Assembly: GCA_938031185.1 (NCBI GenBank)
Contig: CALHGX010000021.1
Coordinates: 1 to 64,000 of the forward strand
DNA from: an uncultured bacterium
GTDB lineage: Bacteria > Verrucomicrobiota > Kiritimatiellia > CAIKKV01 > CALHGX01
Length of the DNA stretch: 64,000 bases
Direction of reading: 5' to 3'
Within the stretch, counting starts at the first letter, position 1. Every line of letters starts with the position of its first letter. A model generated the notes under the pieces. It made no database searches. It worked only from the letters and a program-made list of their open reading frames with translations, and had not been told where the DNA came from. Positions 5,835 through 28,114 of the stretch are shown here, one piece after another. The position numbers and the translations under genes were made by a program.

Positions 5835-7525
5835 TGCATCCTGCCGCCGGCCATCTGTCGCACAGTCCCAATGCGCCGCCAGGCCCATCGCAGCATATCC
5901 ATGCACTCGGGAACGCGCAGCAGGAGCACCGTGAGACCGTAGGCCCACATACCCGCTCCAACCCCCGCCGCCACCGAGATCAACCGCCCTTTGAAATCAG
6001 ACACCACCCAGGCCGAAGCCCATTCAACCGTCCAGGCTGCCGCCCAACCGCACGCACACGCCGCCATCAGCACAGAACCTAGAAAACGAATCCAACGGGT
6101 TGCGCCGCCCAGACAGACCAATCTTTTCAGACGCACCGCCAGTTGCACGCTGTTTAGGAGGGCCACGCAGGACGTCGTCATGGCCAGTCCCACATGGCCG
6201 AACCCAAGCCACTTGAAGAGAATCAGATTAAGCCCCAGATTGATGCCGATGCCGATCAAGCTGACGTTCAACGGTGTGCGGGGATGGTCCAGCGCATAGA
6301 AACACGGCGTCAAGACCTTCAGAACGGCGTAACCGCAAAGGCCGGCTGCGTAGCCACGCAGAGCCGCCGCTGTGCGTGCGGTGTCAAATGCCGTGAAAAG
6401 ATGCCGCTGGTAGATGAGACCGATTAAGTCCGGCGCCAGCGCAAACAATCCGGCCGCCGCCGGCAAGGTCAAAAAGATGGCCAGACGAAGGGACTGCTCC
6501 ACGTTCCAACCAATGGCCGGCAGATCGCCCCGCGCATGATGACGGGCCACCGCCGGCAAGGTCACGGTGGCGATCGCCACGCCAAAAACCCCGATAGGAA
6601 ATTGCATCAAGCGAAACGCGCAATTAAGCCATGATCGAGCCCCGTTGATCTCCGAAGCAAACATCCCATTGACTACCACGTTGATCTGGACGGCCGCCCC
6701 CGCAATAACGCTCGGCCACATGAGGCGCCAAACCTGCCGGAGGCCGACATCGCGCACCGTCGGATCCCAACGGAAAAAATACCCCTGTCGCCTCAAAACA
6801 GGCCATTGTATGGCCAATTGGGCGAAACCGCCCAGCAAAACCCCCAAACACACCCCATACAAAGCCCTTTCACCAAAGAACGGCCTGCGCCAGTCCGCCT
6901 GCGGGTCGAAGGCATACGCCAGCGCCACGCCGGCCGCCACAGAGACCACATTGAACGCCGTGGACGCCGAAGCAGGAAGCCCGAAGATGAAGCGGGCGTT
7001 CAGAACACCCATTGCCACAGCCGCGAGAGAAACGAGTAAGATGAAAGGAAAAAGCAGCCTCGTTAGTCGAACGGCAAGATCAAACTTCCCCGGTACGTCG
7101 TGGAAACCGTAGTTCGTCACGTGAACAAGCCAAGGGCTGACCGCAATGCCGAGCAGGCAGATCGCGCCAAGGAACAGTGTCATCGTGCTCAGCAGTCGAC
7201 TGGTCAACCGCCAAGCGGCCGCCACCCCCTCCCGTTCCTGCGTCTTGGCGAAAGTGGCGGTAAATGCGGTGGACAGAGCCCCTTCAGCGAACAGGTCTCT
7301 AAGAAGATTCGGGATCTGAAACGCAGCCAGAAAGGCATCCAAGTTGCGACCGGCGCCGAACAACCCCGCGAAGACCACTTCCCGAACCAGCCCCATCAGC
7401 CGGGAGCCTAAGACCGCCGCTCCCACCACCCCAGCGGCTTTTCGTCCCCCGCTCATGCGAAGATAGGCCTCTACCACTGCGAATACCCGGCTGCGAAAGA
7501 GAGCCGCCAAGGGATTTCCGCGCAC
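5831..7525 (-). CDS. murJ: MurJ/MviN lipid II flippase
   Basis: GSRLMGLVREVVFAGLFGAGRNLDAFLAAFQIPNLLRDLFAEGALSTAFTATF; multiple TM segments; 564 aa. Confidence 0.93.
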   Translation of the reverse strand: MRGNPLAALFRSRVFAVVEAYLRMSGGRKAAGVVGAAVLGSRLMGLVREVVFAGLFGAGRNLDAFLAAFQIPNLLRDLFAEGALSTAFTATFAKTQEREGVAAAWRLTSRLLSTMTLFLGAICLLGIAVSPWLVHVTNYGFHDVPGKFDLAVRLTRLLFPFILLVSLAAVAMGVLNARFIFGLPASASTAFNVVSVAAGVALAYAFDPQADWRRPFFGERALYGVCLGVLLGGFAQLAIQWPVLRRQGYFFRWDPTVRDVGLRQVWRLMWPSVIAGAAVQINVVVNGMFASEINGARSWLNCAFRLMQFPIGVFGVAIATVTLPAVARHHARGDLPAIGWNVEQSLRLAIFLTLPAAAGLFALAPDLIGLIYQRHLFTAFDTARTAAALRGYAAGLCGYAVLKVLTPCFYALDHPRTPLNVSLIGIGINLGLNLILFKWLGFGHVGLAMTTSCVALLNSVQLAVRLKRLVCLGGATRWIRFLGSVLMAACACGWAAAWTVEWASAWVVSDFKGRLISVAAGVGAGMWAYGLTVLLLRVPECMDMLRWAWRRIGTVRQMAGGRMH

Positions 7526-26991: not shown

Positions 26992-27339
26992 CTACCCGTT
27001 GTCCTGCCCGTCCGTCAGCGTGATGTGAATATGGCTCGTGCGACGGCGAATACGGCTGACCATGCCGCGGGCTCGCGGCCAGTGCCGCCTCAACGCCGGC
27101 CCTTCACCCACGATCGCTTCCTTCACGATCAGATCCTCCGCCGAGGCGCTATCCGAACGGTTGGAGGCGTTCGCAATCGCCGAACGCAGGGTTTTCCCCA
27201 TCAACACGGCCGCCTTGCGGCACGTCAAATCCGTGATCTTCAACGCGTCCGACACCGGCAACCCCTGTATCGCCCGCGCCAGATCTCGCGCCTTTCGCGG
27301 CGACAGCCGCGCATATCTCATGACCGCCTTGACTTCCAT
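26992..27339 (-). CDS. rplV: 50S ribosomal protein L22
   Basis: MRYARLSPRKARDLARAIQGLPVSDALKIT...RHWPRARGMVSRIRRRTSHIHITLTD. Confidence 0.95.
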   Translation of the reverse strand: MEVKAVMRYARLSPRKARDLARAIQGLPVSDALKITDLTCRKAAVLMGKTLRSAIANASNRSDSASAEDLIVKEAIVGEGPALRRHWPRARGMVSRIRRRTSHIHITLTDGQDNG

Positions 27340-27348
27340 GGCTCCCCT

Positions 27349-27819
27349 TCACTCTGCCGGCGAGCCGGCCAGAACCAGCCGGTCGCCCGCCTCCGGCGCG
27401 CGCCGCGTTTCCTCCTCCAGCACGGCTCCCGAAACATTCGGTCTCACATCCACCAAGCGCACGCGACCAATCACCCGCCCCTCCCGCACCACCAAATACC
27501 GCGCTCCTCCACGCAAACCATCCGCCCATCCGCGACGCGTGATCAGCAAGCCCAAGGCGGGGTTCACCTCCGCCACCACCAAGTCGTCGCCTGACAACGC
27601 CATCTCCGGCAACCGTCCTTCCACAAGCCGGCGCTCGCACCGCGCCCGATACCAATCCGCTTCACACCGCGCTTCAACCAACGCATCCGTCAAATAGGCC
27701 ACCCCGGCCGACCGCTCAGAATCCGCCGTAGGGCGCCCCTCACCCGAAGCCCCCAATACGTTCAAGCTCCAGAGCATCCACGCCGCCAACCCGCCCGTTG
27801 CCTGTTTCCGCCATCTCAT
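27349..27819 (-). CDS. Hypothetical, probably exported protein embedded in the S10 operon between rpsS and rplV
   Basis: MRWRKQATGGLAAWMLWSLNVLGASGEG signal-like N-term; LVVAEVNPALGLLITRRGWADGLRGGARYLVVREGRVIGRVRLVDVRPNVSGAVLEEETRRAPEAGDRLVLA. Fits exactly between rpsS and rplV on the same strand (gaps about 10 nt each). Confidence 0.85.
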   Translation of the reverse strand: MRWRKQATGGLAAWMLWSLNVLGASGEGRPTADSERSAGVAYLTDALVEARCEADWYRARCERRLVEGRLPEMALSGDDLVVAEVNPALGLLITRRGWADGLRGGARYLVVREGRVIGRVRLVDVRPNVSGAVLEEETRRAPEAGDRLVLAGSPAE

Positions 27820-27829
27820 CGTCCAGCAC

Positions 27830-28114
27830 CTATTTCAGCGCCACCGCTTTGTCGGTATGCACGCCGTGTTTGCGGAACACCCGCGTCGGCGCAAATTCGC
27901 CCAATCGATGCCCGACCATGTGCTCGGTGATGTAAACCGGCATGTGTTGCTTGCCGTTGTGCACAGCCAGCGTGTGCCCGATGAACTCCGGCACAATCAT
28001 GGACCGGCGCGACCACGTCTTGATCACCCGCTTGTCGCCCGCGCGCGCCAGTGTCTCCACTTTCTTCAACAGCTTCGGGTCCACATACGGACCCTTCTTG
28101 AGTGAACGACCCAT
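27830..28114 (-). CDS. rpsS: 30S ribosomal protein S19
   Basis: [23 protein letters not shown]...[49 protein letters not shown]. Confidence 0.97.

Follow-up and report, generated by a model that had tools for sequence, protein, structure and literature searches.

In the pairs SecM-secA, MifM-yidC2 and VemP-secDF, the gene for an exported product immediately precedes one related to translation or secretion. Barrel domains that are compared with X below are found in FlgT of the H/T ring in the Vibrio flagellar motor, where a small, periplasmic, six-stranded barrel lies at the C-terminus, in the type IV pilus secretin-associated protein TsaP, which joins LysM to a FlgT_C-like domain, and in MreC, which comprises an anchor, a coiled coil and a β barrel with a GxxxGv..Gm motif. 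The gene string rpsS-rplV-rpsC is one of the most conserved in bacteria. In the window (the whole 64,000-nucleotide stretch of DNA that was analysed) a further gene, termed X, stands within this string, giving the minus-strand order rplB-rpsS-X-rplV-rpsC-rplP (Table 1). Its reading frame starts with ATG and ends with TGA, and X is present in a single copy in its own genome (G000). The initial annotation had reported a 156-codon same-strand ORF that fills the gap between rpsS and rplV and encodes a non-ribosomal protein; its coordinates and description are correct, Pfam confirms both neighbours, and X matches no ribosomal-protein family in Pfam or NCBIfam. Searched alone, X had no match in Pfam, NCBIfam or PDB sequences, and an Rfam scan of the window revealed only tRNAs.

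Table 1. Gene X, its neighbours and its protein segments in the window.
Feature	Position	Strand	Evidence
Gene X, putatively exported coiled-coil and C-terminal barrel protein, 156 aa	27349..27819	-	ORF, same-slot homologs, dN/dS
rpsS (uS19), upstream neighbour of X, gap 10 nt	27830..28114	-	Pfam S19 E=2.3e-37
rplV (uL22), downstream neighbour of X, gap 9 nt	26992..27339	-	Pfam L22 E=2.6e-30
X residues 1-24, export-signal-like N-terminus (MRWRKQ... hydrophobic ...VLGA)	27748..27819	-	Sequence
X residues 32-61, long helix / coiled coil, length lineage-dependent	27637..27726	-	AlphaFold, low confidence here; alignment A1
X residues 80-150, predicted C-terminal six-stranded FlgT_C/TsaP-like barrel	27370..27582	-	Alignments, AlphaFold, profile and Foldseek searches

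X is a real gene, far beyond chance, and the original observation, besides being correct, was even understated. A search of 58 relatives identified homologs in 16 of 16 genomes of the same order and in many genomes of the same class, and in all same-order genomes with data these homologs sit between rpsS and rplV. Inspection of the rpsS-rplV spacing in relatives revealed homologs in the same slot at the level of order, class and phylum. The dN/dS values of X range mostly from 0.11 to 0.52, with one value of 0.68 at a dS of 0.07; they are far above those of the neighbouring genes but below 1, which supports purifying selection on X. X diverges far more quickly than the genes beside it, and no single interface of the protein therefore appears to be strongly constrained. 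The annotation had also considered that the ORF might be absent from relatives and free of codon-level selection, and neither is the case. Fast evolution and the lack of a Pfam family would suit an untranslated filler or spurious ORF, but reading frame, domain and position are kept across the phylum and dN/dS lies below 1; this conservation already refutes the filler reading, the probability of which is virtually nil.

The N-terminus of X is basic and hydrophobic and looks export-directed, as first described, and a hydrophobic segment of the same type was observed in 80 of 82 homologs, compared with 15 of 146 ribosomal controls. The score applied is a simple hydropathy measure with a cut-off of 1.6 rather than a trained predictor, and the window protein itself, at 1.39, falls just under the cut-off because of its tryptophans. 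Export of X is strongly inferred from these segments, and the protein is probably located in the envelope. As a candidate ribosomal protein X was rejected on the same N-terminal segments together with the lack of a ribosomal-protein family match. Homologs range from ~100 residues, comprising signal and barrel, to ~400 residues, of which a long coiled coil forms part. This segment is of variable length and missing from some lineages, leaving the ~80-residue C-terminal domain, a predicted barrel, as the sole constant mature part, with the pattern (V)VxVNxxLxxVV...G...G(v)r.Gm.f.V.R....vxVxDvR...aGA.i......GDr and near-invariant residues G97, G101, G105 and the GDR motif (145-147). The AlphaFold model, built from six sequences only, displays a helix at residues 9-21, a long helix at 32-61 and β-strands at 80-86, 91-94, 107-112, 115-124, 130-137 and 147-150. 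Block-mean pLDDT of the C-terminal domain is 73-88 and the remainder is poor, so that the β-rich C-terminal domain proposed earlier is recovered in the model.

Structural similarity search of the X model with Foldseek returned TsaP, a chain of the flagellar LPHT ring and the barrel found at the N-terminus of rotary (F1/V1) ATPase subunits, all weak matches (best E 3.6e-3, none below 0.001). The ring chain, ranked second with a probability of 1.00 but an E of 0.01 and a TM of 0.39, is taken to be FlgT from its chain length. A barrel profile (A4) matched TsaP in the PDB (3jc8_Ta, E=2e-5) over the segment G...GV..G..F.V.R, and on this profile the C-terminal barrel of X appears homologous to that of TsaP, whereas alignment A1 of the family retrieved mostly coiled-coil noise from the PDB. 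FlgT_C (PF16538) is the commonest Pfam near-match of the family, with a best E of 7.1e-5 in a set of 22 barrel sequences that includes two from dispersed paralogs. X does not reach the FlgT_C cut-off, and in 13 genomes the sole match above it is another gene, located on contig C41 of the window's own genome (positions 6892-7080, within a 321-aa frame).

The order of parts is that of MreC, and weak profile matches to MreC were obtained (PDB E=0.012; best Pfam E 0.0078). X could accordingly be read as an MreC-like or divisome-type morphogenesis factor that would serve wall elongation alongside ordinary MreC by means of an N-terminal anchor, a coiled coil and a barrel. We regard this as quite improbable: a separate full MreC is encoded in 7 of the 8 genomes tested, among them that of the window, X has one barrel domain only, and its coiled coil is not invariant, as several families comprise signal and barrel alone. 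X was likewise rejected as the MreC of its genome, since PF04085 does not match it and a separate MreC lies on contig C47, whose presence disfavours a substitute role.

The gaps on either side of X are only 9-10 nt, from which co-transcription with rpsS and rplV on the S10 ribosomal mRNA is strongly inferred. Codon adaptation of X in the window (0.654) lies within the range of ribosomal proteins (0.588-0.736) and exceeds that of 13 of the 14 other long ORFs. The anti-Shine-Dalgarno energy is -3.7 kcal/mol for X, against -6.6 for rpsS and -7.9 for rplV, and among 63 loci, with automatic start codons of which some are wrong, the Shine-Dalgarno sequence is weaker in X than in S19 in 40 and than in L22 in 37. 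X is thus perhaps translated less than its neighbours. The earlier proposals that X is expressed at full ribosomal-protein level, and that it ties the cell surface to translation output, are speculation.

On balance, X is probably a scaffold or adaptor that is made from the S10 mRNA and exported to the periplasm, representing an ancient Verrucomicrobiota family upstream of rplV with growth-linked dosage. X would be translated from the ribosomal-protein mRNA and exported by Sec via its signal peptide or N-terminal anchor; where present, the variable coiled coil would oligomerise or space the protein, and the conserved FlgT_C/TsaP-type barrel would dock it on another envelope component. From its place on ribosomal mRNA we propose that X dosage follows growth rate. 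Such coupling through operon position is plausible, while the scaffold role and the benefit of growth-coupled dosage are tentative. Secretins occur in every genome of the class, so that their co-occurrence with X points to no partner. X, as a putatively exported protein whose gene directly precedes, across a short gap, that of the exit-tunnel protein uL22, could also act as a secretion monitor: in the manner of SecM and secA, its translation would sense Sec capacity and control rplV together with the genes that follow. The tail after GDR, however, is short and variable, with no conserved C-terminal arrest-like motif, which disfavours a SecM-type device; conservation lies in the folded barrel, and the gap between X and rplV ranges from about 0 to 165 nt. 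A monitoring function is therefore very improbable.

The distribution of X was assessed in the class by a census of 112 genomes anchored on ribosomal S19. X occupies the rpsS-rplV slot in families f1, f2, f4-f6, f12, f14, f16, f18, f26, f29 and f37 and in single members only of f10 and f24; in f3 it was seen in the slot in same-order loci, separately from the census, and in f17, where the S10 operon is split, X stands with rplV only. About a third of the class families carry X in the slot. The remaining families lack X: either rpsS and rplV are ~0-260 nt apart, or the operon is split (f24). A survey of the phylum, in which profile A1 was run over 243 genomes and combined with S19 and L22 positions and loci, revealed X in most other sampled families of Verrucomicrobiota; it immediately precedes rplV in representatives of f41-f44, f46 (in part), f47, f48, f51-f57, f59-f62, f64 and f65. 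X was not found in f45, part of f46, f49 and one f42 genome (L280). In a single-contig genome of 2,664,102 bp (G199), which we take by its size to be Akkermansia muciniphila ATCC BAA-835, the slot between rpsS and rplV holds an X of 236 aa; the gut bacterium Akkermansia thus very probably carries X.

In two 0.92-Mb genomes (L245 and L246), whose size suggests Candidatus Xiphinematobacter, the slot holds a stretch of 148 and 313 nt, respectively, with stops in the reading frames, X being lost or decayed. A second protein family of X-like layout is scattered over the phylum; at L183:4484-6120, in the genome of Akkermansia size, two tandem dispersed paralogs of 258 and 271 aa with the layout of X lie near dnaX-like genes. 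In f24, short X-like proteins of 165-176 aa with signal, coiled coil and barrel are encoded away from ribosomal genes (L188:5804-6331 and L194:5701-6195), the former adjoining cytidine-deaminase-like and ruvB-like genes; they are possibly relocated X.

Where the S10 operon is broken, X stays with rplV. It lies upstream of rplV without rpsS in 23 loci (a few from one and the same genome), and 45 loci have an rpsS end with no rplV close by, X following rpsS in none of them, so that operon breaks fall between rpsS and X. Several X genes of split operons have promoter-like upstream DNA, as judged by eye, and in L186 the gene upstream of X is divergent; X is therefore probably promoter-proximal there and, in several split loci, seems to head the rplV operon. 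On a tree of S19, L22, S3 and L2 from 146 loci, 62 with X (a small, midpoint-rooted tree of unsplit operons only, split genomes being left out), X presence required 13 changes, against a mean of 47 and a minimum of 37 for shuffled labels, and fitted one ancestral gain and about 16 losses. Since X presence tracks the ribosomal-protein tree, X is probably ancestral with many losses, and an origin ancestral to the whole phylum appears likely. Pairwise distances of the X C-terminus and of L22 are correlated (r=0.66, reached in 0 of 2000 permutations). The many losses, and the disappearance or degradation of X in the two 0.9-Mb genomes, indicate that X is not universally essential.

The main rival reading is that X is a frozen hitchhiker, acquired by the S10 operon a single time in an ancestor and retained there, excision being harmful to rplV expression through promoter or translational coupling, while its envelope function is unrelated to ribosomes or growth rate. 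The many losses without obvious consequence and the fast evolution of X would agree with this, as would the promoter-like sequence in the enlarged rpsS-rplV gap of several X-less lineages, from which the slot may matter for driving rplV. On the other hand, X accompanies rplV through operon splits, as the first gene of a new operon rather than being dropped, and its codon adaptation in the window is ribosomal-like; we consider such passive retention a real possibility, though one that we doubt. An ancestral dedicated device of Verrucomicrobiota tying envelope building to ribosome production, in which an rplV-locked exported periplasmic scaffold has a dosage that follows ribosome output, appears unlikely.

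Other elements were observed around rplV. In X-less loci of f10, f13, f22 and f32, including L049, L034, L036 and L086, the rpsS-rplV gap extends to about 85-220 nt and contains, by eye, sigma70-like promoter sequence, exemplified by TTGACC-TATAAT in L049. In f46 (L235-L241 and L282) a conserved element, AAAAGGG(C/T)AGGG-[hairpin]-CTGCTGTCGCC-[loop]-GGAATC, immediately precedes the rplV ATG with or without X, and is a candidate ribosomal-protein leader RNA. A different conserved element, GATCGCAGA..TTGCGCCGGAAACGGGACCGG..ATCGTAACAGCGG, lies about 70-130 nt upstream of rplV in X-less f24 loci whose S10 operon is split (L130-L138 and L140). Rfam gave no match in 20 related loci, including the f46 element and the scanned loci with the f24 element.

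No description of the rpsS-X-rplV insertion was found in the open-access papers searched, nor did an experimental localisation or phenotype of X come to light; the X family, its position and its linkage with rplV thus appear undescribed, whereas the domain type is already known. That an exported protein is fixed in rpsS-rplV-rpsC over a large part of a phylum, and stays with rplV at operon breaks, is unexpected, and the finding names an undescribed family that is, very probably, present in Akkermansia. A TraDIS study of Verrucomicrobium spinosum lists 644 genes as essential, along with 100 essential proteins whose function is unknown (PMC12283558). X offers a simple way of testing, in mutagenisable organisms, for a hard-wired link between envelope building and ribosome synthesis.

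When compared with the described systems, X resembles FlgT in its predicted small C-terminal six-stranded barrel and predicted periplasmic location but lacks the N-terminal and middle domains of FlgT as well as a flagellar gene context. Its C-terminal barrel is like that of TsaP, although a signal and a variable coiled coil stand in place of LysM, which was not among the families listed in an hmmscan of 16 X-family members, and its gene adjoins rplV rather than pilus genes. The succession of anchor, coiled coil and β barrel with a GxxxGv..Gm motif is shared with MreC, from which X differs in its single barrel domain. With SecM-secA, MifM-yidC2 and VemP-secDF, X shares the placement of a putatively exported product just upstream, but it differs from these systems in lacking an arrest motif and in displaying a conserved folded domain.
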